DNA of 64,000 nucleotides from Candidatus Zixiibacteriota bacterium (GTDB lineage Bacteria; Zixibacteria; MSB-5A5; GN15; FEB-12), in assembly GCA_022571985.1 (NCBI GenBank), contig JACZWU010000008.1:1-64000 (forward strand), given 5' to 3'. Numbering within the stretch: position 1 is the first letter of the stretch; every line of letters starts with the position of its first letter. A program made the position numbers and the translations under genes. The notes under the pieces were generated by a model. It saw only the letters and a program-made list of their open reading frames with translations. It searched no databases and was not told the DNA's origin. Below are positions 1,749-61,898 of the stretch, piece after piece.

Positions 1749-2936
1749 CTAAGTTTGTATCTTTGAATCGAGCATCTTCCTGGCAGCCGCTTTGGCTTCC
1801 TCAAATACAACCGCAATAGGCACGCCTTTTTCAGAGGCTGCCTTTTTGCAATCTTCATATTCGGGATGAATACTTTTTATGTCACCACCCAGTCTGCCGA
1901 CTTTGATACCGATGTCGCCATAGGAGGTTTCGACTGAAACGATTTCCCTGTGAAGCTTTTTTCTCCCAATACGCTGAATGCGCATTCCGAGCGTGGACAC
2001 TTCACTAAAAACTGTTGAGAGCACCTCATCCAGTCTCTCCGGTTCGATAATTATACTCATCATTGTCCCCGGCCTGTTTTTTTTCATCGAAATCGGCGTC
2101 ATATAAAAATCCAATACTCCCTGGCTTAAAAGCAATTCCGAGGTATAGCCAAGTAGTTCAGGATTCATATTATCTATATTGGTTTCCAGCAGAAGCACTT
2201 CATCGGACAAATATTTCTCTGTAGCAGCTTCCCCTAAGCAGATCCTCAATAGATTAGGGATTTCCAGATCCCGGCTGCCAGCCCCGTAGCCAATCCGGGA
2301 AACCGTCATATCCGGCATTGTTCCATAGCTTTTTGCAAATGCTTTGAGAATGGCCACACCTGTCGGCGTTGCCATTTCAGCTTCAATTCCCCGAGAATAG
2401 GTGGGAATCCCCTCAAGAATTTCCATTGTCGCCGGAGATGGTACCGGGATAGTACCGTGCTGACAATTTATGAAGCCGGTGCCTACTTGAACTCTGGACG
2501 AATATACTTCTTCGATACCCAGCTTGCTTATGCCATAGACCGAGCCAACAATGTCCACGATAGAATCGATGCCGGCGACTTCGTGCAGATGTATATGATT
2601 GATATCTTTTTGATGAATCTTCGCTTCCGCCTCTGCTACATATCGAAAAACTTTTTCAGATTTGATTTTGATTTTGTTCTGCAGATCGCTCTTATCCAAA
2701 ATATCAAGAATATTGGTGAAAGTCCGGTGAGGATGGCGCTCGGTGACACTAACATCAAACTTAACGCCCCTGATACCATTCCTGGAAGTCGTTTCAGCTT
2801 TTAACTTAATCCCCGGCAAATTCAGTTTCTGCATTTCGGACTCAAGGTCCTCTACCTCTAGCCCAAGATCGATCAGCGCCCCTAAAATCATATCACCGCT
2901 AATACCTGAGAAGCAGTCAAAATATGCTATCTTCAT
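1749..2936 (-). CDS. larC: LarC, nickel insertion into pincer cofactor
   Basis: LarC (DUF111 family) performs the CTP-dependent insertion of nickel into the pyridinium dithiocarboxylate nucleotide, the last step of nickel-pincer nucleotide synthesis. The 395-residue product begins with the diagnostic FDCFSGISGDM and has HLHEVAGIDSIVDIVG near residues 117-132 and the conserved EMATPTGVAIL near 185. In Lactobacillus larC is split by a programmed frameshift; here it is one continuous frame. It is the last gene of a larE-larB-larC operon, 14 bp after larB. Confidence 0.93.
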   Translation of the reverse strand: MKIAYFDCFSGISGDMILGALIDLGLEVEDLESEMQKLNLPGIKLKAETTSRNGIRGVKFDVSVTERHPHRTFTNILDILDKSDLQNKIKIKSEKVFRYVAEAEAKIHQKDINHIHLHEVAGIDSIVDIVGSVYGISKLGIEEVYSSRVQVGTGFINCQHGTIPVPSPATMEILEGIPTYSRGIEAEMATPTGVAILKAFAKSYGTMPDMTVSRIGYGAGSRDLEIPNLLRICLGEAATEKYLSDEVLLLETNIDNMNPELLGYTSELLLSQGVLDFYMTPISMKKNRPGTMMSIIIEPERLDEVLSTVFSEVSTLGMRIQRIGRKKLHREIVSVETSYGDIGIKVGRLGGDIKSIHPEYEDCKKAASEKGVPIAVVFEEAKAAARKMLDSKIQT

Positions 2937-2950
2937 TTATTTCACTGTTC

Positions 2951-3694
2951 CTAATTGAGACGGGCCACAAAGTGTCCGGCACCAAAACCGTTGTCAATGT
3001 TCATCACCGCCACACCGGGCGCACAGGAGTTCAGCATCGTCAGTAACGCCGCCAGACCCTCAAAGCTACTGCCATAGCCGATACTTGTTGGCACGGCAAT
3101 AACCGGTTTACGAGTAAGTCCGCCCACCACGCTGGCCAGGGCGCCATCCATGCCTGCTACAACAATAATTGCATCAGCGGAATTCATTAGCTGAATCTCC
3201 CCTGTAAGACGGTGCAGACCGGCGACGCCGACGTCATAAAGACGTTCAACCGAATCGCCTCCCAAAAGTTCAGCAGTAACAGCGGCCTCTTCGGCAATAG
3301 GGATATCCGATGTCCCGCCGGTTATGACGAGAATCTTTTTGTTTTTTTTCTTACTCTCGATCTTGCCTATGGCAACAATTCGCGCAACATCATAGTATAC
3401 CGCCTTGCCGTTTACACCGGCGATTGCCTGATAAATTTCATCGCTGGCTTTAGTGGCTATCACCGGTTGTTTTAGATCAGCTAACTTTTTGGCTATTTCG
3501 CTGATTTGTGCTGTCGATTTACCTTTGCAAAAGATGACTTCTGGAAATCCGGTTCTGAGCATCCGATGGGTATCCAGTTTAGCGAAATCGAGATTTTCAT
3601 AGGGAAGCGAGGTGAACGTCTCCAGTGCTTCGGGCACAGTCATGGAATTTTCCTGGACCCTTTCCAGCACGGCTTTAATTTTTATTCTGTCCAT
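2951..3694 (-). CDS. larB: LarB, pyridinium-3,5-bisthiocarboxylate synthesis
   Basis: LarB carboxylates and hydrolyses nicotinic acid adenine dinucleotide to give the dicarboxylated mononucleotide used by LarE. The 247-residue protein has the PurE-like C-terminal half: ITGGTSDIPIAEEAA near 123-137, then GMDGALASVVGGL and VPTSIGYGSSFEGLAALL. The N-terminal half carries LDTHRMLRTGFPEVIFCKGK, typical of the family. The ATG at 3694 lies inside the 3' end of larE (20-bp overlap), which implies translational coupling. Confidence 0.93.
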   Translation of the reverse strand: MDRIKIKAVLERVQENSMTVPEALETFTSLPYENLDFAKLDTHRMLRTGFPEVIFCKGKSTAQISEIAKKLADLKQPVIATKASDEIYQAIAGVNGKAVYYDVARIVAIGKIESKKKNKKILVITGGTSDIPIAEEAAVTAELLGGDSVERLYDVGVAGLHRLTGEIQLMNSADAIIVVAGMDGALASVVGGLTRKPVIAVPTSIGYGSSFEGLAALLTMLNSCAPGVAVMNIDNGFGAGHFVARLN

Positions 3695-4544
3695 TAGTCT
3701 TTATAAACGTGTTCATGCTGCCCATTCTGTAACCTTCCAGATCAACAGTGACATATTTGTAGCCTAAAGCCTTGAAGGCCGTTACGATTTTGTTCATCGA
3801 TGACTCTTTAAGCAATACCGGGAATTCATCTTTCGGCACCTCTATTCGAACCAGTTCACCATGTACCCTGACACGTTTCTGTTTGATACCCAGTTGTTCC
3901 AAAAACATTTCAGCCTTTTCAACTTTAGCAATGTTTTCTTCATAAAGACGGGTGCCATATGGGAATCTGGTTGAGAGGCAGGCTTCGGCCGGCTTATTCC
4001 AGGTTGGTAATTGCAGCTGTCTTGATAATATCCGAATCTCGTCTTTGGTCAGCTTGGCCTCTTTCAAGGGACTGTTTATTCCGAATTCGGTTGCCGCAGT
4101 CAGCCCGGGCCGATAGTCGGTGGTATCGTCGTAGTTGGTACCGTCCACCACCCAGGCTAAATTGTGTTGTTCAGCCAGCAGCAGCAGTTTTGTAAACAGC
4201 ATTTTTTTGCAGTAGTAGCAGCGGTCGGCAGGATTGGCGGCAAACTTTTCGTTTTTCAGTTCATTCTGATAAATTACTTCATGACTGACTCCGATCGAGT
4301 TAGCAATTTCTCTGGCACACTCCAGCTCTTTTGTTTTATAAATTGGAGAATGAGTGGTAACCGCCAGCACTTTACTGTTCAAAACATCAAAAGCAACTTT
4401 CAATAGAAATGTGCTATCCGTACCTCCGGAATAAGCCACCAGAACGCTGCCCATAGCAGTCAGTCGACTCACCAGCGCATGCAGCTTGGCAGAAAGAGAA
4501 TTGTCTATATCCAACGCATCATAACTAACACTTAGTTCAATCAT
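3675..4544 (-). CDS. larE: LarE, sulfur transfer for the pincer cofactor
   Basis: LarE is a PP-loop ATP pyrophosphatase that adenylates the LarB product and transfers sulfur to it. The PP-loop VAYSGGTDST lies near residues 36-45. I chose the ATG at 4544, not the upstream TTG at 4574, because GGAG stands eight bases before it; this gives 289 residues. A CYYC pair (NPADRCYYCKK) plus the cysteine in EACLSTRFPYG gives three cysteines. That resembles LarE proteins proposed to bind an Fe-S cluster rather than the single-cysteine sacrificial type; the assignment is inferred. First gene of the lar operon. Confidence 0.9.
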   Translation of the reverse strand: MIELSVSYDALDIDNSLSAKLHALVSRLTAMGSVLVAYSGGTDSTFLLKVAFDVLNSKVLAVTTHSPIYKTKELECAREIANSIGVSHEVIYQNELKNEKFAANPADRCYYCKKMLFTKLLLLAEQHNLAWVVDGTNYDDTTDYRPGLTAATEFGINSPLKEAKLTKDEIRILSRQLQLPTWNKPAEACLSTRFPYGTRLYEENIAKVEKAEMFLEQLGIKQKRVRVHGELVRIEVPKDEFPVLLKESSMNKIVTAFKALGYKYVTVDLEGYRMGSMNTFIKTNGQNKN

Positions 4545-5019
4545 CTCTGAGACTCCATAACTTAGCTGCAGCAAGCTGCCGTTTCAGGTCGCGGCCGGTT
4601 TGTAGTTTGACCAAAACCATATCGGAGTATTTGAGATTTGTCAAGATTCAACAGAACTGTTTCGAATTGATGCTAATTCTATCTAACTGCGCGGGACACC
4701 TCGCCTCATCAAGGGACAGAACTTTCGACAGACTCAGGACGGGGCGAGGACACGCCATGGCCGCCGTACACGAAACTAGTCAAATTGTTGCCAGCAATTT
4801 TGTCATTCCCTAGTCTTTAACTGTCTTTCCAACGTTTTAATCCCGAGCGTAGCCGAGGGGCAGGCTGGAATCCATCTACTTTGTCATTCCCGAGTAGTCG
4901 GGAATCCAGCCGCTGATACGAGCAGAAAAGTTTAGATTCAAAGTACATGGGGGGCAGATGGCACAACTGCCGCCCACAAACTAAATACTCACTTAGAAAG
5001 TGGGCACCCTGACTCCAGT
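4545..5019. other. Gene-free stretch with an inverted REP-like element
   Basis: No convincing gene is visible. At 4842-4915 lies an inverted copy of the dispersed element, with CATTCCCGAGTAGTCGGGAA, matching the copy near 1020-1050. GC-rich fragments at 4690-4790 look like degraded copies. Confidence 0.5.
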
Positions 5020-5616: not shown

Positions 5617-6216
5617 TTGAGACTCCCTGAACACAAAACTAAGTAGTTTCAACGGTACTTGCCTTGATATGTCCCACAGTTTATTAAACAAACACATAGC
5701 CATATCAATAAGATTAGATAATTGAGATTACTTATAAAATCAATCAATATTCGCGGGTGGCCTACCGTTTATAATGGATTCATGTCGAAATCCCCACCAA
5801 ACCCCTACAAAATACTCTCCCCCATGTAAATAGAAAGCAACCATCATTGTGACAAAAAACAGGTGAAAAACAATAGGAAAAATATATAATATAACAAAAC
5901 GAAGCCAATGGGCAGCTTAGGCTTTGCCTACCCTTCGGCTACGCTCAGGGTGACGATTATAGAAGATGGAATCCCGCCTACCCTTCGACTCCGCTCAGGG
6001 TGACAGATGAAAGATGGATTCCCGCCTGCGCCCCGTGACTACACGGGACTAAAGCTGGAAAGACAGAAGAGGCAAGAAAAGACAAAGTCGAGAATTGGGC
6101 GACCAGATAACGGCCTAATTTACGCGCTGTCTTATATCGCCGAAGTGGTCGGTGTCGCTGCAGGGTGGCCCACCATTTATGGTGGGTTCCTGTGTCACCC
6201 CCGGTTACTGTCGGCG
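5617..6216. other. Repeat-rich intergenic region downstream of kamA
   Basis: No gene is supported. It holds a decayed REP palindrome (GGTGGCCTACCGTTTATAAT, about 5754-5773), two runs of the CTACCCTTCG...CTCAGGGTGAC element (5930-6020), a GATTCCCGCCTGCG segment, a 45-bp near-copy of the 3' end of the radical SAM gene (6115-6159), and a REP palindrome CCCACCATTTATGGTGGG at 6169-6186. Confidence 0.6.
6115..6159 (-). repeat. Partial duplication of the kamA-family 3' end
   Basis: Bases 6115-6159 match 6217-6261, the last 45 bases of the radical SAM gene including the stop codon, with three mismatches. The copies are offset by 102 bp, and the intervening 57 bp contains a REP palindrome, so the duplication and REP insertion may be one event. 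Confidence 0.75.
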
Positions 6217-17074: not shown

Positions 17075-17149
17075 ACTATAATATACACATTAATTTGGAT
17101 TTTGGCTGAAAAATGTTGGGGGGATTGCTGAATTTATGTTCTGATTACA

Positions 17150-17215
17150 GACGTTATGATCCCACCGCAAGCTGCCTGTCCTGAGCGTAGTCGAAGGGTG
17201 TGCGACCAATCATTT
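17150..17215. repeat. REP-like element
   Basis: ATCCCACCGCAAGCTGCC and CTGAGCGTAGTCGAAGGG followed by GTGCGACC are a diverged copy of the REP elements that flank the RAYT gene at 17.9 and 18.5 kb. Confidence 0.5.
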
Positions 17216-17222
17216 GTCTTTT

Positions 17223-17858
17223 TCACCTAGAAGACACCCACAAAACCATATCAATTTTCCTAGCACTCCAATTATTGGATTTAAATTCATGATTTAGTTC
17301 TTTTGCCTTTTGTTTCAGTATTTTGATCAGTATGACTCCATCTGTTATTTTCAATTGTTCTGGATTCATTTTTGAAAGCGCTGATTTTTCAGGTAATCCT
17401 TCAACCTCTAAGAGAGCTTTTACTACAAATTGGTCAACTGTTGCAAAGTGGAAAGGAAAAAGTACTGACAACAAACCTGAAGCGCCCGCCGTCCCCAATC
17501 CTCTGATTTCACATGCGGTTGTTAGTCCGACGAAAATATTCTCTTTATCAAAATTGAATATTCTTTCCTTAATTAAGAAGAGGGTTTGAAGACTGTCGCC
17601 TAGACCCAAATACTTCTTGAGATGATTAGAAGTTGTCTTATATCTATTTGGTGCTGTGTATTTCCAAAAAAAATATTTTTCTCTCAGAAATTCGTACCAC
17701 TTGTCCGCATCCAATTTCGCGATTTCCTCAACATTATTAGAGTCAAATTCTTTTTCAATTTTCATGTGGGTCGGCTTTACAAAGCTCCAGTATCTCTGTA
17801 GCGCCATAAGCCAATCTTGTTCGCTGTCACTATTCCACAACTCATTTGTTGATGGCAT
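17223..17858 (-). CDS. Hypothetical protein, possible helix-hairpin-helix-like fold
   Basis: The 211-residue protein has an AAGGAG ribosome binding site eight bases before its ATG. A conserved-looking core reads IRGLGTAGASGLLSVLFPFH followed by FATVDQFVVKALLEVEGLP near residues 120-160. This resembles the G-(x)n-ASxxL...P..F...D pattern of HhH-GPD DNA glycosylase-like folds, but the family catalytic lysine is not evident and I do not assign an activity. It lies between a REP element and the RAYT gene, which is a site of likely turnover. Confidence 0.5.
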   Translation of the reverse strand: MPSTNELWNSDSEQDWLMALQRYWSFVKPTHMKIEKEFDSNNVEEIAKLDADKWYEFLREKYFFWKYTAPNRYKTTSNHLKKYLGLGDSLQTLFLIKERIFNFDKENIFVGLTTACEIRGLGTAGASGLLSVLFPFHFATVDQFVVKALLEVEGLPEKSALSKMNPEQLKITDGVILIKILKQKAKELNHEFKSNNWSARKIDMVLWVSSR

Positions 17859-17886
17859 CTTTGTTTCTCCTTAATTGATTTAGATC

Positions 17887-17912
17887 GGTCGCCCACAGCT
17901 TGCTGTGGGATC
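17887..17912 (+). repeat. REP palindrome, left copy flanking the RAYT gene
   Basis: It contains CCCACAGCTTGCTGTGGG (17892-17909), a perfect 8-bp stem with a TT loop, preceded by GGTCG. The same 26-bp unit lies in inverted orientation at 18481-18506 with one mismatch. REPs in inverted pairs around a RAYT gene are the expected arrangement. Confidence 0.8.
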
Positions 17913-17932
17913 CTCACATACGAAAACTAATC

Positions 17933-18430
17933 TCAGAATTCGCTAATATCCATCTTCAAAGGTACATCAGTCTGCCCTTGATACCAATTATAACTTGACC
18001 AAAGCCAGTCTTCCTGCTGTTCCACCAACCCCCTGCGCACCGGATTTCTGTGACAATATTCAATTTTTTCACGCACTGCATCTGTCGTACGACAATTGTG
18101 GTCGTAGCAACGGCGTTGCCAAAATACTCTAGTTGTCTTTTCCGATTTCCCAGCAGTTATTCTGAACCATTCGCGAGCTGACAGAGATTTAATTTCTCCT
18201 ATCACTCTGCCGATTTGAGTGCCGTCAGGCGGATGGATAACAAGATGAACGTGCTCCGGCATTATGACATATCCCAGGATTAGAAAGTTGTATTTTTCTC
18301 GTGTGTTATTGAGACAGGTCAGGAGAATTTCTTTAGCACGATTGTCGTTGAGTGACGGCTCATCGCGGTAACAGTTAAAAGTGATGAATCTGGCCGTGCC
18401 GGTGTTGTCATAGTGTTTCAGCTTTGGCAC
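17933..18430 (-). CDS. REP-associated tyrosine transposase (RAYT, Y1/IS200-like)
   Basis: The 165-residue protein is a Y1-transposase domain. VIMPEHVHLVIHPPDG holds the HUH metal-binding pair (HVH near residue 61). EYCHRNPVRRGLVEQQEDW and LWSSYNWY near the C-terminus are typical of RAYTs. Single-strand nucleases of this type act on REP hairpins. It is full length for a RAYT and has inverted REP copies 20 bp after its stop and 51 bp before its start. A GTG start at 18430 is assumed; no strong ribosome binding site is visible. Confidence 0.88.
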   Translation of the reverse strand: MPKLKHYDNTGTARFITFNCYRDEPSLNDNRAKEILLTCLNNTREKYNFLILGYVIMPEHVHLVIHPPDGTQIGRVIGEIKSLSAREWFRITAGKSEKTTRVFWQRRCYDHNCRTTDAVREKIEYCHRNPVRRGLVEQQEDWLWSSYNWYQGQTDVPLKMDISEF

Positions 18431-18480
18431 GGGAAAAATATAGGCTTAGTGCAAATCGAGCGCAAGTGGTCGTATGTTAT

Positions 18481-18506
18481 GACCCCACAGCAAGCTGTGG
18501 GCGACC
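18481..18506 (-). repeat. REP palindrome, right copy flanking the RAYT gene
   Basis: CCCACAGCAAGCTGTGGG (18484-18501) followed by CGACC is the reverse complement of the left copy at 17887-17912 (25 of 26 bases). Next to it (18513-18545) is a CTCGGGACTAAAGCGGGAAT segment of the other dispersed element. Confidence 0.8.
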
Positions 18507-18593
18507 AAAGCCTCCGCTTCGCTCGGGACTAAAGCGGGAATGACATGCAAGGCCGGAATGACATGTAGGGCAGAAATAGCAAAAGAAGCAGGA

Positions 18594-18624
18594 ATAAAAA
18601 AGGGGCTGAATATATTCAGCCCCT
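18594..18624 (-). terminator. Intrinsic terminator of secD-secF
   Basis: On the minus strand AGGGGCTGAATA pairs with TATTCAGCCCCT and is followed by a run of T, about 30 bases after the secF stop. This is a textbook Rho-independent terminator. Confidence 0.88.
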
Positions 18625-18654
18625 GCAAGAAATACTTTCAACACATAAACTATT

Positions 18655-30910: not shown

Positions 30911-33118
30911 ATGAATAATAGAATTATCGGGTGCGTTTTACTCATAAGTTTCAGCGCAAGTCTAACTTTTGCCCAAAATGATACAGATGTTTTAGAAAAA
31001 GTATTAGCCGAAGTCGGCTTTACCAGAGTTGACCTCGGTTATGATGACAAAGGCTACTTGACCCGATATCCGCTGGATATTCCCTACAAATTGACCTCGT
31101 TTGACGACCTTTTTGCCGAGCCTTTGAAGTTGTATGACTACGCCCGCGTGATGAGCAATGCTGTTGAAATTTTTCTCGAGCCGGCTTATGCTGACAGCGC
31201 AGACGACGGCCTTTACAAATTGGTTTACAATCTTGGAGTTGACAAAAGACGGGGCGGGTTCCGGTCGTATTCTGCTAATCTCATGCCTGCGCCCGATGTG
31301 AAGAACCCGATAGCCGAAGCAGTTCAAAGATTATATGAACAGGCTGGATTGAAACGGGAGCACTATACTTTTGGCCGGAAGGCCAATTATCCGGGTCTGG
31401 ATTCAATCATTATAGAGCAAACGAAAATCTTGCCCGATTCGGTAAGAATGATTATTGCTGAACTACTGGTAAATTTAGGAGAGGCAATCAGCTGGCGATA
31501 TCGGTCAATTCGTAATTGCAAGTATGATGATTTGCAGAAAGTGTTTGCCATTCGAGACCTGGCCGAAACGCAGACCGACGGCACAGTTTATTATCCGGAG
31601 ATAGATGACATTGCCAACTCCATCGACTGGCAGTCTTTGCACTATGCAGCACTAAAGACAGCTGCCGCCTCAGAGCAAGCAGAAAGAAAGTTATTGAAAT
31701 GGACTGACAAAGTCCCCAAAGAGTTCGAAATTGAAATCGAAACACCTTACGGGAAAATTGCTATTTTGTCACCAACCTATATCAAAAAACAGATGCCGCC
31801 GGCCAGATTTATGTCGGGTATCCGGGCTTCGAGACCGGCTTATTTTGAGATGGACGCCACCAATTTTCTGGCCATAATAGATTTTGGCCGTAAGTCTATT
31901 TATCAGGGTTCGGCCGGAGCGACGTCGTCGCTTGATAATCCGATATCGGTTATAATCGATCTGGGCGGCAACGACTACTACGGCTATCAGAGAAAGCACT
32001 ATGCGCCGACAACAGGTGTAGGAATTCTGGGAGTAGGCCTAGTAATTGACACTAAAGGCGACGACCACTATAACGGCTCGACCTTTGCGCAGGGAGCCGG
32101 ATTTTTTGGAGTGGGTGTGCTGCTCGACCGCGAGGGTGATGACAAGTACAAAGCCGAAGTTTCAGCGCAGGGCTGCGGCTATTTTGGAATCGGTTTGTGT
32201 CTGGACGGAACCGGCAATGATAAATATTATCTGTACGGCGACGGTCAGGGCATGGGCGGTGTCGGCGGTGGTGTGGGCGTGCTGGCTTCGTTTGGCGGCA
32301 ATGACAAGTACACGGCCGAGCCTTATTCAAAAGTTTTTGATCGCGGTGACTATCATAGCAAATTTGTCATAAACGGCAATCAAGCCCAGGGTGCCGGGTT
32401 TGGACGACGGGGTGACGGTTCCGATGGCCACAGTTGGGCCGGAGGACTTGGCGCAATTATCGATATCAACGGCGATGACCATTATTATTCGGGCAACTTT
32501 ACACTCGGTGTCGGCTACTGGTTTGGTACCGGTATCGCCATTGACCGCAACGGTAATGACATTTATGAGTCCTGTTACTTTACTCAAGGCTCCGGCGCGC
32601 ATTTTTGTAATGGCATCCTGATAGACGAAGGCGGCGATGACAGACATGAACTTTTTGAAACCGCCGGCGCCGGACTTGGCTTTGGCTGGGACTACACCAA
32701 CGCTTTTCTGATCAATAAAGGCGGCAATGATATTTACCGCGCTAAAATTATTTCGATGGGGCTGGCGCAGATTCGCTCTAATGCTTTTTTGATTGATATC
32801 GGCGGCGATGACAGCTACTACCTTGGCGAAAACACAGCCGGATTGGGTGAGGCAACCTTTCGCTCGAATTTCAGGAAGCCGTCGAATCTGACTCCTTATT
32901 TTAGCTATGCTAAATCGTTTGGCGGTTTTATAGATATTGGCGGCAACGACAACTATTATAGTTTCAAAGACAAAAAAGAAAGCCCGCATCCGACTGCCAA
33001 AAACAATTTTATCTGGCTGAAACCAGAGCGGACCGACAGCACTTTTGGCGCCAACAATTTTGGGGTTGGTATTGACATAGACAGCGGCACCATCCCGGAG
33101 TTTTTCAAGTGGGATTGA
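30911..33118 (+). CDS. Secreted protein with about ten GG(N/D)DxY repeats
   Basis: The 735-residue protein has a signal peptide (CVLLISFSASLTFAQ) and GGAGG before the ATG. Residues 30-330 form a helical N-terminal domain. From about 345 a 25-50 residue unit recurs about ten times: (I/L)D..G(N/D)D.Y, then a short strand ending in QG.G..G.G. Examples are IIDLGGNDYYGY, VIDTKGDDHYNG, LLDREGDDKYKA, AIDRNGNDIYES and LIDEGGDDRHEL. This suggests a beta-solenoid, with Asp/Asn turns that could bind calcium as in RTX proteins, though the RTX nonapeptide is not matched. Presumably exported; role unknown. Confidence 0.7.
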   Translation: MNNRIIGCVLLISFSASLTFAQNDTDVLEKVLAEVGFTRVDLGYDDKGYLTRYPLDIPYKLTSFDDLFAEPLKLYDYARVMSNAVEIFLEPAYADSADDGLYKLVYNLGVDKRRGGFRSYSANLMPAPDVKNPIAEAVQRLYEQAGLKREHYTFGRKANYPGLDSIIIEQTKILPDSVRMIIAELLVNLGEAISWRYRSIRNCKYDDLQKVFAIRDLAETQTDGTVYYPEIDDIANSIDWQSLHYAALKTAAASEQAERKLLKWTDKVPKEFEIEIETPYGKIAILSPTYIKKQMPPARFMSGIRASRPAYFEMDATNFLAIIDFGRKSIYQGSAGATSSLDNPISVIIDLGGNDYYGYQRKHYAPTTGVGILGVGLVIDTKGDDHYNGSTFAQGAGFFGVGVLLDREGDDKYKAEVSAQGCGYFGIGLCLDGTGNDKYYLYGDGQGMGGVGGGVGVLASFGGNDKYTAEPYSKVFDRGDYHSKFVINGNQAQGAGFGRRGDGSDGHSWAGGLGAIIDINGDDHYYSGNFTLGVGYWFGTGIAIDRNGNDIYESCYFTQGSGAHFCNGILIDEGGDDRHELFETAGAGLGFGWDYTNAFLINKGGNDIYRAKIISMGLAQIRSNAFLIDIGGDDSYYLGENTAGLGEATFRSNFRKPSNLTPYFSYAKSFGGFIDIGGNDNYYSFKDKKESPHPTAKNNFIWLKPERTDSTFGANNFGVGIDIDSGTIPEFFKWD

Positions 33119-33340
33119 GGTATACGTCGTAACTAGCTAATTTTGACAGAATGAGCCAAATAGTTTTGACTTGACAAACTTATTCAGGACAATAACTTGT
33201 GGCTATTGCCGAGTCAGCAAAACTTGGAGAGAGCATTTGACGTGTTGTTGCCGTATCGAGACTATATGTAATGAATGCACAAATAACGCAAGAACCGTGC
33301 AGAAAAAGCCGATAAACTAAGACATAGAAGCTTTTTGGAG

Positions 33341-33346
33341 TATAAT
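33341..33346 (+). promoter_or_regulatory. -10-like TATAAT upstream of the three-gene cassette
   Basis: A perfect TATAAT lies 27 bases upstream of the ATG at 33373. No clear -35 hexamer is found at the right spacing, so this is tentative. Confidence 0.4.
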
Positions 33347-33372
33347 ATAGAGATGTTGCCAACAACAAAATA

Positions 33373-34029
33373 ATGAAAATTATACGGAATTATAGTAGTG
33401 TAGTTACAGTCGGAGGCTTTAATCCTTCCATCTTTACTCCTGATTTCTTGACGAAAGAATGTAAAATAAAGCTTGGAGACTCGGGTGAATCAAGGGTTAC
33501 TCCTGTTCTTTCTGATATAAAATCAGGAAGTATTGAATTTCTTATGGAGTTAAATAGGTTTCAGATATTGGTAAGAAACTTGAGTGACTTTAAAAATCAA
33601 TTTCCTTTAGAAACTATGCTTTGTTACTTAGAAATACTCAAATATACTCCCTTGTCACTTCTAGGAATTAATTTTAACTACACTCTTATGGGCTGTGACT
33701 CTTCAGAACTCATCAAGAAGTTCAGCGATGTACTGGATGCCGGAGATGCATTTAATGTAGAGCCATCAGGAGTTAATATCTCGGCAAAGAAAATTAATGG
33801 AAATGCATTAAGGATCAATGAGGTAACAATTTCTCATGAAACTGACAAATTGTTCAAGAATTCGATCCGGCTAACTTTTAATACTGATAATGTAACGATA
33901 AATGACAATTATGAAATGAATGGATTAGATAAAGAACGAGAGAAAATCAAAGAAGTTCTGAATTATTTTCCCACACTCTTGAAAAGTAACAATTCCTTAA
34001 ATAAGAAAATTGAAGGGTTATTAAAATGA
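33373..34029 (+). CDS. Unrecognised gene 1 of a three-gene cassette
   Basis: The 218-residue product has no signal peptide or membrane segment. The region is more AT-rich than its surroundings. Its stop overlaps the start of the next gene (ATGA at 34026-34029), so the genes are coupled. I see no catalytic motif. The cassette lies between the secreted repeat protein and mfd and reads in the opposite direction to mfd. Function unknown; acquisition by transfer is likely from composition. Confidence 0.5.
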   Translation: MKIIRNYSSVVTVGGFNPSIFTPDFLTKECKIKLGDSGESRVTPVLSDIKSGSIEFLMELNRFQILVRNLSDFKNQFPLETMLCYLEILKYTPLSLLGINFNYTLMGCDSSELIKKFSDVLDAGDAFNVEPSGVNISAKKINGNALRINEVTISHETDKLFKNSIRLTFNTDNVTINDNYEMNGLDKEREKIKEVLNYFPTLLKSNNSLNKKIEGLLK

Positions 34030-34460
34030 GTAATGGAATTTCAACAGATATAACAGGAAATCCGGTACAGCTCGACACCCAGTCAGATGTGCAGCTTAAA
34101 GTTCAAGATATGGGTCAACATTTGTATTATCGGACGAAAATACATAAGAATTACAAGGATTCTATTGAGAGAAATCCGAACCTAGAAATTGCTTGGCAAA
34201 TCTTTGTAACAGGGGATAAACCTAAAGAAGGTGTTTATCTCTTGCGTGTTAATGAAGGAGATTCCTCATATTACGTTTACCTAGACGATGATATCGACTA
34301 TTTAAATAAACAATATGCGGATTCATTCAGGTCTATTCAAGTAACAGAGGATGAGAGTTACGAACGTTCTCCAGAAATTCATGATTGGTGTGTAGATGGA
34401 CTAAAAATGGATTGGAAACGTGCGAATGAATTATATAAGAAATTAATGGGAGAAAAGTAA
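34026..34460 (+). CDS. Unrecognised gene 2 of a three-gene cassette
   Basis: The 144-residue, acidic product begins at ATG within ATGA overlapping gene 1. It has a segment AWQIFVTGDKPKEGVYLLRV and YYVYLDDDIDYL that could be beta strands. No known family is evident. GGGAG at its own 3' end probably serves as ribosome binding site for gene 3. Confidence 0.5.
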   Translation: MSNGISTDITGNPVQLDTQSDVQLKVQDMGQHLYYRTKIHKNYKDSIERNPNLEIAWQIFVTGDKPKEGVYLLRVNEGDSSYYVYLDDDIDYLNKQYADSFRSIQVTEDESYERSPEIHDWCVDGLKMDWKRANELYKKLMGEK

Positions 34461-34462
34461 GT

Positions 34463-35092
34463 GTGCCTTCAGAGCACCCAAAACAAATTATAGTTCCTCC
34501 ATTCGATGAAGTATACTTAACACCTTCTGACCCAAAGTTCCTTCCAGAAACTGAGCAATCAGCCATATATGATGATATACATTTTAATTGCCTAAGTGAG
34601 AATTGCAAAGGAATAATTTTAACTTCTGAATGTGACTTGGTTCAGGGATCACCAGACGACTACGTACTTGTTGCACGTATTTGTCCAATTGGCTTGATAT
34701 GGGCTTGGTGGCTCAAAACAAAGAAGGACTATTCAGACAATGAAATTATAGGTGAAGAGCCCCTCAGCAGAGGCAAGAGAAAAGACATTCTTGAAGAGTT
34801 TAGTAAATATTACATCAATAATAGAACACATCAGTATCATTTTCTCCCTGAAAATAGTGGAGCAATCGACGCCTCTTTCATCTGTTTTGAACTCACAGAG
34901 TGTATGCAGGTCAAGAATTTCGACCCTAGTAAGAAAATCTGCGTATTAAAGTCTCCTTTTAGAGAAGCAGTACCTACGCGTTATTCAGCCTACATAGGAA
35001 GAATTGGCACTTCTGCAATCGATAACAGCTACAAGAAAACAGCCTTGGACTCCGTTTGTAAATTGAAAAACCCTCCTCAGCCTTCTGGCTGA
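34463..35092 (+). CDS. Unrecognised gene 3 of a three-gene cassette, TSECDL motif
   Basis: This 209-residue protein starts at a GTG (34463) two bases after the stop of gene 2. It contains GIILTSECDLVQGSPDDYVL, a motif type (ILT/SxxCDI) I associate with uncharacterised proteins of prophages and defence islands; no activity is established for it. A later AVPTRYSAYIGRIGTSAI may bind nucleic acid, but this is guesswork. Coupling of the three genes suggests that they act together. Confidence 0.5.
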   Translation: MPSEHPKQIIVPPFDEVYLTPSDPKFLPETEQSAIYDDIHFNCLSENCKGIILTSECDLVQGSPDDYVLVARICPIGLIWAWWLKTKKDYSDNEIIGEEPLSRGKRKDILEEFSKYYINNRTHQYHFLPENSGAIDASFICFELTECMQVKNFDPSKKICVLKSPFREAVPTRYSAYIGRIGTSAIDNSYKKTALDSVCKLKNPPQPSG

Positions 35093-35093
35093 G
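35065..35093 (-). terminator. Hairpin at the mfd 3' end
   Basis: CTCAGCC and GGCTGAG (35076-35093) form a 7-bp stem with a four-base loop. On the minus strand it is followed after five bases by TTTTT, so it may terminate mfd; it also overlaps the end of the convergent gene. Confidence 0.5.
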
Positions 35094-35114
35094 TCACAAC
35101 CAAAGTCAGTATTT

Positions 35115-38100
35115 TCAGACTTTACACAATACATTCTTCAAATAACCCAATCGTTCGGATTCTTTGATCACACCCAATTCTATCATGACTTCGTTTCGGC
35201 CGGCGAAAGAAAATTCCATCGGGCAGTCGGTAGCTCGGCGCAGCGACTCTATCTCTTTGCGCTCTAACTTGCGGGCTTCAGAAAACTTTATTGTCGCCCG
35301 GCCGCTTTTGACAGCCACTTTTTCAACTTCCAGAATCGCGGCAGCAACTTTAAGGGCGGTGCCATCGACCAGACTGACGGCTTCGGTCGGCATCTTTCCA
35401 AAGCGGTCGGTTATTTCATCGCGGATTTTTTCTACATCGTCAAGCGTGCGACAATCGGCCAGACGGCGATAGAGGTCAACTTTGTGCTGGCGGTCATTGA
35501 TGTAATGATCGCTTAAGTGCATTTCTATATCTGTTTCAAGTTTTGTTTCAGGCAGGCGGACAATCTCCTGTCCTTTTAGCTCGGCTACTGCTTCTTCCAA
35601 TAGTTTATTGTAAAGGTCATAGCCGAGTTCCTGCATAAAGCCGGATTGTTTGGCGCCTAAAATAGTTCCGGCGCCGCGGATTTCCAGATCGCGCATGGCC
35701 AGTGCAAAACCAGAGCCAAGATTGGAGTGTGACTCCAGCGCCCGCAGACGTTTTACGGCTTCAGCGGTCAGCCCTCGCAAAGGAGGCGTTATCAAATAGG
35801 CATAGGCCTGCTGTGCCGAGCGTCCTACCCGGCCACGCAGCTGATACAACTGCGCCAGGCCAAAGCGGTCGGCGCGGTTGATGATTATGGTATTGGCCGA
35901 GGGAATGTCCAGCCCGGATTCGATTATCGCCGTACACAAGAGCACATCGTATTTCTTATCGAGAAACTGTATCATTACTTTTTCAAGAGTTCGTTCGTGC
36001 ATCTGGCCATGGGCGATTACTATTTCTACCTGAGGCACAAGTTTTTTGAGACGCTCATAGACGGCATCTATCGACTTAATCCGGTTGTGCACAAAAAAGA
36101 CCTGCCCGCCCCGGTCTATTTCGCGCAGGATAGCCATAGCAATTTTGGCGTCTTCGTCTTCGGAAATTTCAGTAATAATCGGCCGGCGGTTTTTGGGCGA
36201 AGTATTAATCAGACTCATATCACGCACACCCATCAGTGACATCTGCAAAGTACGCGGTATCGGGGTGGCGGTCATCGACATCGTATCTACCGAGGCTCGC
36301 AGCTGTCTCAGTTTTTCTTTATGCGTAACGCCAAAACGATGCTCTTCGTCAATGACCAGTAATCCTAAGTCATGAAACTTTATATCTTTTGATAAGAGCC
36401 GGTGGGTACCTATGACCAGATCGATGGTTCCGTTTGACAAGCCTTTCAGGATTTCTATCTGCTGAGCTTTGGTCCGAAAGCGTGAAAGCATTTCCACTTT
36501 GACCGGAAACTCTGAGAGTCGTTCTGAGAAAGTTAAAAAGTGCTGCTGGGCCAGTACTGTTGTCGGCACTAAGATAGCCGCCTGTTTACCTCTGTCTATA
36601 ACCTTAAATGCCGCCCTGACGGCAACTTCGGTCTTGCCGTAGCCGACATCGCCGCAGACCAGACGGTCCATCGTTTTTTCCTGCGAGAGATCAAACTTGC
36701 AGTCATCAATTGCTTTTTGCTGGTCGGGGGTTTCTTCGTACGGGAAAGATGCCTCCAGCTGCTTTAGCCAGACAGTATCTTCACCGTAAGCAAAGCCGGT
36801 GTGGATTTTTCTTTCGGCGTAAAGTTTGATAAGCTTCTCAGCCATATCGGCGATAGATTTTTTGGTACGGGCTTTTAATTTTTCCCAGGCCGAGCCGCCC
36901 AGCCGGGAAAGTCTCGGTGGTGCATCTTTGCCGGCGTACTTGGCCACCCGGTTGAACTCTTCTATCGGTACAAAAAGTTTGTCGTCTTCGGCGTAGTGCA
37001 GCAGTAAACAATCGCGGCTGTGGCCGTCTATGGTGAGAGTTTTTAAGCCGCCGTAGCGAGCCAGACCGTATTCGGTATGCACCACGAAATCACCCTGAGT
37101 AAGCGCCGCATAATCAGTTATCGCTACACCTTCCTGATATTGTTTCTTACGGATACGGCGATGGTGACGGTGGAAAATTTCATGGTCGGTCAAAATTCCG
37201 AAGCCGCCGCTTTCGCAGACGAAACCGCCTTTGATGTCAAGTACCTGAATTTCCGGCAGTCTCTTTAGTTCCTCTCTGGCCGAGACCAGATCCTTAAAAC
37301 GCGCTGCCTGACCAGTAGAATCGGCCGCTACAAAATAATTCAGACCCTTGGCGCTGAATTCATTAAGTCCTTCGATCAGCCTGTCTAAGTTATTACCAAA
37401 GGCAGGATGGGGGCCGCAGCCAAAATCTATTATATCCTGACGTCCTCCTTTGAAGGGCAATCTGTCAATCGAACGGTATTTATTAAGCGACTCAAACAGC
37501 TTCTCTGGTTTCTGATAATACTTTTCCGGTTTTACCAGCGAGCTAATCTGCTCTTTTAGTCTGTCGTAAAGAGCCTGGCCTTCTTCAATAATATTCTCTG
37601 CTTCATCTTTGATCCTGCCCAGACTGTCTGTAAACAGAATTGTATCGTCGCTTAAGTAGTCAGAAAGTTTCCCCTGCTTCAGACCAAACATAACCGACAG
37701 CCATTCCAGGCCCGGCAGTTCGGGGTCGTTTAAGTACCTGTCACGGATGTAACCGGCGTCTGTTTCTGGAAGTTTTTCCAGATATTTTTCGACTGATTCC
37801 TGCGTGATAGGGACTTCCCGGCGGGGCAGGAGATTGACAGAGTCTACTCTTTCGATTGTCAGCTGAGTGGAAACGTCGAACAGCCGGATAGTATCTATTT
37901 CGTCGCCAAAGTACTCGACCCTGACCGGAGCATAGACAGCCGGGGAGAAAAAATCTATAACACCTCCTCTTAGCGCAAAGTCGCCTACTTCTTCGACAAC
38001 CGGCACCCGCCGAAAGCCAAGTTTGACCAGTTTATCTACCAAAATATCGAGTTCGTATTCAGTCTTGGTTTTAAGAGAAATGCTCTCTGCCACCAGCTGC

Positions 38101-61520: not shown

Positions 61521-61898
61521 ATGCCATTGATAGCACATATTTTTTAGCAAGAAACCCACCGCAAGCGGATGGGCCACCAACCCTATTGAAGTGCTCTTTT
61601 GTCCACGAAAAATTCACTTTCTAAAAAAATATTTCATAGAGTCTTTGTGTTTAAGAAAAAGGGAAAGATTTTGGTCCTACCCTAATGTCATAACCTTGTA
61701 TGCCGGGTTTAACTTTAGTACTTAGGAAGTTCATCATTATTCCACATCTCTAGTTTGATCTTGATGGATTCATCCGATTGGATCTCCCAAATAACAAGAT
61801 ATTTTCCGGTATCAGTAATTGGATAAGGTGGACCAGACGCCGATTCTTACCGGGCGTCCGTTAATGAAACACTAATTTTAGATATCTCGTCTATTCAC
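61521..61898. other. Gene-free stretch with REP palindrome and element-end repeat
   Basis: The region contains CCCACCGCAAGCGGATGGG followed by CCACC at 61555-61578, a REP variant in reverse orientation, and at 61598-61626 the repeat shared with 48793-48824. A degraded frame follows; nothing else is recognised. Confidence 0.55.

Follow-up and report, generated by a model that had tools for sequence, protein, structure and literature searches.

The window, a stretch of 64,000 nt from a Candidatus Zixiibacteriota genome, contains at 17887-18506 a locus which in its architecture is an ordinary, textbook REPtron. A complete gene for a transposase of RAYT type lies there between two inverted REP palindromes. 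We consider it probable that a single-copy Y1 HUH RAYT, placed between its inverted cognate REPs, has spread the approximately 40 copies of the REP that are dispersed over the genome. New in this locus and its relatives are the consensus tag GTCG, the tag variants with matched arms found over the whole phylum and, as a suggestive result, covariation between residue 19 of the RAYT and the third base of the tag.

Architecture of the locus

The two palindromes belong to inverted units of 26 bases, identical at 25 of 26 positions when 17887-17912 (GGTCGCCCACAGCTTGCTGTGGGATC) is compared with the reverse complement of 18481-18506 (GGTCGCCCACAGCTTGCTGTGGGGTC). Counted in full, the inverted arms are 42 nt long and match at 88% (17887-17928 and 18465-18506). 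With the intact reading frame of 165 aa, this bears out the first-pass annotation, which had described two 26-base copies facing each other around a complete RAYT gene. When the window was searched for the palindrome with up to three mismatches, only the sites of REP A and REP C were returned, against 0.04 expected. REP A has the stem CCCACAGC/GCTGTGGG with a TT centre, and as single-stranded DNA it folds into 7 bp with a loop of 4 nt (-6.7 kcal/mol, z -2.5, DNA folding). All features are collected in Table 1.

Table 1. Features of the REPtron and related elements in the window. CM, score of the covariance model.
Feature	Position	Strand	Remarks
RAYT / TnpA-REP gene	17933..18430	-	165 aa, GTG start; NF047646, PF01797, 4er8
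RAYT codon N19	18374-18376		
RAYT codon H60	18251-18253		
RAYT codon H62	18245-18247		
RAYT codon Y125	18056-18058		catalytic
REP A	17887..17909	+	tag GGTCG 17887-17891, hairpin CCCACAGCTTGCTGTGGG 17892-17909; CM 51.7 bits
REP A conserved 3' tail ATCCTCACATACGAAAACT	17910..17928	+	within 42-nt arm; tail bases 8-9 CA
REP C	18484..18506	-	inverted relative to REP A; tag GGTCG 18502-18506, hairpin 18484-18501; CM 50.5 bits
REP C conserved 3' tail GTCATAACATACGACCACT	18465..18483	-	tail bases 8-9 CA
REP B	17151..17209	-	GTCG tag, split by CCTGAGC..GAAGG-type palindrome; CM 19.7 bits
Solo REP	6162..6196	+	tag GTGG, hairpin CCCACCATTTATGGTGGG; CM 38.8 bits
Diverged solo REP CCATCCGCTTGCGGTGGG	61545..61580	-	CM 32.6 bits
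211-aa ORF between REP B and REP A	17223..17858	-	unrelated ORF instead in G001

RAYTs are always flanked by two inverted REPs (PMC2817692), and both this arrangement and the origin of the flanking REPs from a dispersed intergenic family were found here. Relatives of the palindrome had also been proposed at 6169-6186, 61555-61578 and 17155. The first two coincide with a GTGG-tagged REP and a diverged REP, respectively. The palindrome at 17155 is related as well; however, it is interrupted by another palindrome and is therefore not simply a REP with an altered stem, as had been assumed. The GGTCG flank noted beside the hairpin is present and could be refined to GTCG, a divergent form of the GTAG-type tag.

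The RAYT protein

The product scored 117.6 bits against the NCBIfam model NF047646, REP_Tyr_transpos (cut-off 80), while the IS200 model NF033573 gave 39.7 bits, under its cut-off of 55; PF01797 was matched as well. The protein contains the HUH motif H60-V-H62 and a single tyrosine in the Y---NP signature (Y125-C-H-R-N129-P130), as in TnpAY1 class 2, and H60, H62, W104, Y125, N129 and P130 are invariant in 33 RAYT relatives. The sole significant match in a PDB sequence search was E. coli TnpA-REP, 4er8, which is also the best fold match (Z 17.8, rmsd 2.8 over 144 residues, 25% identity) to the AlphaFold model of the window RAYT (pLDDT 89.5). Fold, HUH, tyrosine, WQ motif and Y---NP are common to both enzymes, whereas the REP in the window is a perfect palindrome with GTCG and that of E. 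coli is bulged and has GTAG. The IS200/IS605 transposases of IS608 and ISDra2 matched the fold at Z 11-12. They share with the window RAYT the HUH and tyrosine and a guide tetranucleotide 5' of the hairpin, but the window RAYT differs in having Y---NP for Y---Q, in the absence of tnpB and in its score below the NCBIfam IS200 cut-off. Compared with the sister species, the gene has dN/dS 0.125 (dN 0.052, dS 0.415), and secF has 0.139. Judging from the RAYT model, the 4er8 fold, the invariant residues and the dN/dS value, the window RAYT is intact, under selection and probably functional.

Two further RAYTs are present in the genome (L020, C1:408493; L021, C2:121721), each bracketed by its own, different inverted repeat with a GTAG tag. 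Several RAYT/repeat pairs per genome have been described for other hosts (PMC6006769). The multiple near-identical transposase copies of IS200/IS605 elements were not found in this genome; its three RAYTs are mutually diverged, with about 29% identity, and their REPs differ. Within some 900 bp there are at least four copies of the repeat belonging to L021.

The REP family in the genome

The pattern CCCACNNNTTNNNGTGGG matched 19 times in the 2.93-Mb genome and the reversed-pattern control 0 times; for the half-pattern CCCACNGCTTGC the numbers were 26 and 0. This clear excess answers the doubt, raised with the first-pass annotation, that the hairpin could be no more frequent than by chance. The covariance model R1, built from 18 copies, gave 39 matches at E<0.001, the 18 copies among them. 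Three of the eight stem pairs were altered on both sides, with 100% of the cells paired, and the covariation score was 0.273 compared with 0.065 after shuffling; as the 18 copies were picked by a pattern fixing the outer five stem pairs, only the inner three could vary, and the most variable pair was a free one. The stems thus covary, as had been claimed, and this covariation, the genome-wide family, the RAYT model and 4er8 together support the earlier reading of a RAYT bracketed by inverted REPs. Among the best 30 copies, 26 lie outside any ORF of at least 120 aa. The tag is GTCG in both arms of the locus and in most copies in the genome, and not only the stem but also the unpaired tag and tail are conserved.

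Genomes with a RAYT match have from 3 to 65 REPs and those without one (n=3) have 2-6; REP numbers do not strictly track the presence of RAYT, since G017 has a RAYT yet only 3 REPs. One REP pair, C1:161062/161647, whose spacing of 585 bp comes close to the 589 bp around the RAYT, was searched for a RAYT relic; none was found between the two REPs, which bracket another small ORF. The own genome also contains GTGC-tagged REPs (L018, L032, L035, L036, L042) without any GTGC-type RAYT, and the congeneric G002 has a GTGC-type RAYT (L157) and has retained GTCG REPs. The picture resembles a reciprocal loss of RAYTs in which the REPs stayed on as orphans.

Tags of RAYTs across the phylum

Relatives of the window RAYT at E<=1e-30 were found in 57 of the 132 genomes of the phylum examined; the relatives' genomes, where named, are Ca. 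Zixiibacteriota MAGs. Tag and hairpin were recognised on both sides at 56 of 82 RAYT loci. The same tag stands on both arms at 48 of these 56 (shuffled mean 10.2, max 21), and the hairpins are letter-identical at 29 (shuffled mean 2.3). Single-tag loci comprise GTGG (19), GTGC (17), GTAC (11), GTAG (8), GTCG (4), GTAA (2) and GTAT (1). On the RAYT tree the tag changes 26 times, compared with 35.9 in shuffled sets (min 30), and the hairpin core 17 times, compared with 29.2. The four RAYTs with GTCG on both arms, that of the window included, form one clade (support 90). As read from these loci, tags vary over the phylum but agree within one RAYT and track the RAYT tree. Beyond the Zixibacterial set, RAYTs (almost all of them from Planctomycetes and Acidobacteria) show this architecture too, their tags being GTGC or GTGG and their stems different. 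At some RAYTs (L263, L276, L280, L287, L069) bulged REPs (CCCACCCAGAGC..GCGTCGGGTGGG) resembling those of E. coli were seen, and bulged and perfect-palindrome hairpins both occur within one RAYT clade.

The canonical foot GT[AG]G, i.e., GTAG or GTGG (PMC6006769), is replaced by GTCG in the window. Since a GTMG degeneracy, which covers GTCG, is reported for some REP families (PMC3733652), we treat GTCG as a tag variant and not as a different kind of element. Indeed, the unpaired 5' tetranucleotide, the 8-bp stem, the very short loop and the TT centre are those of the GTAG superfamily (PMC3733652). The window family differs from this superfamily in having GTCG as its consensus instead of as a minority variant, and in the distinct RAYT residue that accompanies the tag. 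The CGTC superfamily (PMC3733652) also has an 8-bp stem and a short loop, but its repeats have no flanking transposase and its stems begin with AT pairs; the window REP, with its GTCG tag, unfitting CCCAC stem and RAYT, does not belong there. The REPtrons of Stenotrophomonas, Pseudomonas and E. coli (PMC2817692) resemble the present one in the Y1 RAYT, the two inverted REPs, the dispersed intergenic REPs and the own REP of each RAYT, and differ from it in that the window has GTCG for GT(A/G)G and a moderate copy number of about 40. The host phylum of the window is not among the hosts in the cited REPtron literature.

Candidate cut site

Corneloup et al. (PMC8266576) found in vitro that the cleavage dinucleotide is the complement of tag base 4, followed by that of tag base 3 or tag base 2. 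Applied to GTCG, the rule predicts CG or CA. One of these stands at tail bases 8-9 in 15 of 17 GTCG copies in the genus and in 7 of 15 in other genera, the latter being the fairer figure because the position was picked after the copies of the own genome had been viewed. With other tags the share is about 14% (binomial p 0.002 for the GTCG copies of other genera). GTCG copies keep CG or CA at this position even where the remaining tail has diverged, and tail bases 8-9 are a putative cut site. As a general law the rule was rejected: over 233 Zixibacterial REPs tail base 8 came out top with a family-wise p of 0.11, and all non-GTCG tags pooled gave 131 observed and 130.0 expected agreements, which is chance. 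We retain it as a prediction for the GTCG REP only.

Residue 19 and the third tag base

Co-evolution of RAYTs and REPs is known. To our knowledge, only three in-vitro models have addressed the shift of a RAYT lineage between tags. In the present set column 19, placed by the AlphaFold model in strand beta1 (FITF-N19-CYR), has the strongest tie to tag base 3 among 176 alignment columns (z 15.3, next column 7.9). With C as base 3 the residue is N in 4 of 4 RAYTs and with G it is S in 30 of 36; with A (n=22) it is C in 12, G in 4, S in 4 and A in 2. In simulations of tag base 3 along the tree (about 1200-2800 runs per rate) column 19 never attained its observed value (p <0.0005), and the best of all columns attained that value in 3-5% (family-wise p 0.03-0.05). 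The parallel change of residue 19 and tag base 3 suggests how RAYT/REP pairs could stay matched. The beta1 region is one of those that contact GTAG in TnpA-Ec (PMC8266576), and residue 19 may likewise contact and read tag base 3.

Two readings of the association were weighed. It is a real possibility, with somewhat less than even chances, that shared descent has produced the association by accident, without any contact. For residue 19 the well-supported branches yield just three independent pairs, a number insufficient for a sign test, and the family-wise p is no better than that given above. Furthermore, the residue of E. coli 4er8 aligned to position 19 is N, though its tag is GTAG, contrary to the pattern within the clade; any code of residue 19 would thus be local to this clade. 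Among 52 RAYTs from outside the set whose two arms carry equal tags, 50 have S with G as base 3, one has C with G and one V with A, and being mostly in one state they confirm consistency more than change. What speaks against mere descent is the first rank of column 19 with its wide margin in z, the position of the residue in beta1, with the contacts of that region in TnpA-Ec, and a second lineage: another RAYT with N19, L137, located on a different branch, has GTCG on one arm, though GTAG on the other. The second reading, which we put forward tentatively and with some doubt, is a two-part code, in which residue 19 would read tag base 3 and the same base would set the cleavage dinucleotide. N19 would then go with GTCG and CG/CA, S19 with GTGN, and C, G or A19 with GTAN, so that the specificities of RAYT and REP drift together.

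The approximately 80 RAYTs with seven tag types and matched arms in one phylum amount to a natural mutagenesis series. The series singles out one residue and one base for exchange in a standard cleavage assay, and for GTCG elements it gives a predicted cut dinucleotide. If the two-part code is true, natural RAYTs would be ready-made ssDNA nucleases with predictable and switchable specificity.

Genomic neighbourhood

In related genera (G011, G026, G030, G014) the DUF4159 gene comes directly after secF, and the locus is empty. In the genus of the window this gap is expanded and is different in each species. The RAYT with REPs A and C is common to the own genome (G000) and G001, in the same place, and between orthologous REPs G001 has an unrelated ORF of 215 aa in place of the 211-aa ORF. 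At this locus G002 lacks the RAYT; it has a GTCG REP together with some 45 nt from the end of the element, and other ORFs. The alignment of the window with G002 breaks within 35 bp of the REPs at 6196, 17151 and 18508; as REPs sit between genes, these breaks may be just the usual intergenic instability.

Several minor observations were made in this comparison. The gap between secF and DUF4159 (window 17075-18654; L233, L234) is a hot spot, with different ORFs in the three congeneric species and boundaries at REPs. In G002 the REP is followed by a diverged duplicate, about 200 bp long, of the 5' part of the DUF4159 gene (L234:6769-6969). The 211-aa ORF has a match in only 1 of 60 relatives (G031, 64% identity); that it might be a defence gene was considered and rejected, as neither a PADLOC nor a Pfam match was found. 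About 2 kb of the window, 33115-35115, is missing from G002, which has 38 bp there, and no REP is nearby.

Proposed activity of the REPtron

The dispersed REPs would be present or former non-autonomous elements spread by the RAYT of the window. In single-stranded DNA, such as the lagging strand, the REP would fold into its hairpin, and the RAYT would bind the hairpin together with the 5' tag GTCG. Y125, with the metal site of H60 and H62, would then cut the DNA and rejoin it, approximately 8 bases beyond the hairpin, at CG or CA, the dinucleotide being set by the tag. The predicted ssDNA substrate is GGTCG-CCCACAGCTTGCTGTGGG-ATCATAACGA, i.e., tag, hairpin and following bases, with the cut C-G or C-A at tail bases 8-9. 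Architecture, REP family, stem covariation, a selected RAYT, matched arms, the tracking of tags with the tree, residue-19 covariation and CG/CA tails all support this at the level of sequence; binding and cutting of the REP by the RAYT, and the spread of REPs by it, are what we infer. No transposition event was caught in the genomes compared. The own genome has no second copy of the window RAYT and the gene stands in the same place in G000 and G001, which gives no sign of recent gene movement. The best-supported reading is that the window RAYT would recognise the GTCG hairpin and at some time has probably spread the REPs.

Domestication is a less likely reading, though one with several arguments in its favour: the RAYT would have ceased to move REPs, and a set of them, a relic of older spread, would serve as fixed ssDNA processing sites for a host function in replication or genome structuring. 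The single copy, the same locus in two species and purifying selection close to that of secF agree with this; low-copy RAYTs are described in the literature, where 'domesticated transposase' is a term in use (PMC8266576, PMC6006769), and GTCG REPs have been kept in G002 despite the absence of the RAYT from the locus. The match of tag and hairpin, RAYT by RAYT and over deep divergence, needs continued recognition, an argument which does not separate recognition from movement. That the RAYT and both REPs move as a whole, as an autonomous IS200-like transposon, is improbable. In its favour, the inverted ends of 42 nt lie close about the gene, the related genera have an empty locus, and near-identical units recur in G034 (L236, RAYT 2643-3137 and 4481-4975); against it, there is one RAYT of the window type per genome here, the location is shared with G001, solo REPs far outnumber the units, and recombination accounts for the G034 copies, a direct tandem on a single contig. 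The remaining explanation takes the palindromes for elements acting in RNA, as terminators or mRNA stabilisers, which flank the RAYT incidentally. It fits GC-rich intergenic hairpins and roles reported for REPs elsewhere (PMC3733652), but it is highly improbable, given that tag and tail, not just the stem, are conserved, that tags match on both sides at 48 of 56 RAYTs, and that there is a covariation with a RAYT residue for which RNA offers no explanation.

The tandem in G034 (L236, G034:C86:1500-7490) consists of the RAYT unit with its REPs twice in direct orientation at a spacing of 1838 bp, and a third, truncated RAYT gene start lies there beside a REP.

Interrupted REPs

At least ten REPs are split by a second palindrome, often of the CCTGAGC-N4-CGAAGG type. 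These are found at 17151-17209 in the window, at L233:6611-6659, and in the own genome at L026, L030, L033, L035-L037, L040, L042 and L044. The CCTGAGC-N4-CGAAGG palindrome itself has 23 copies, compared with 0 for the control. We considered that the interrupted REPs could be Y-shaped elements with two hairpins, and rejected this, since folding z values of +1.1, -1.0 and +1.1 do not point to a designed structure; REP B folds poorly. The interrupted elements resemble REPs that a second palindrome has disrupted. The ortholog of REP B has the short form in G001 (L233:7392) and the interrupted form in G002. Between G000 and G001 the state of interruption differs at two orthologous REPs, in opposite directions.
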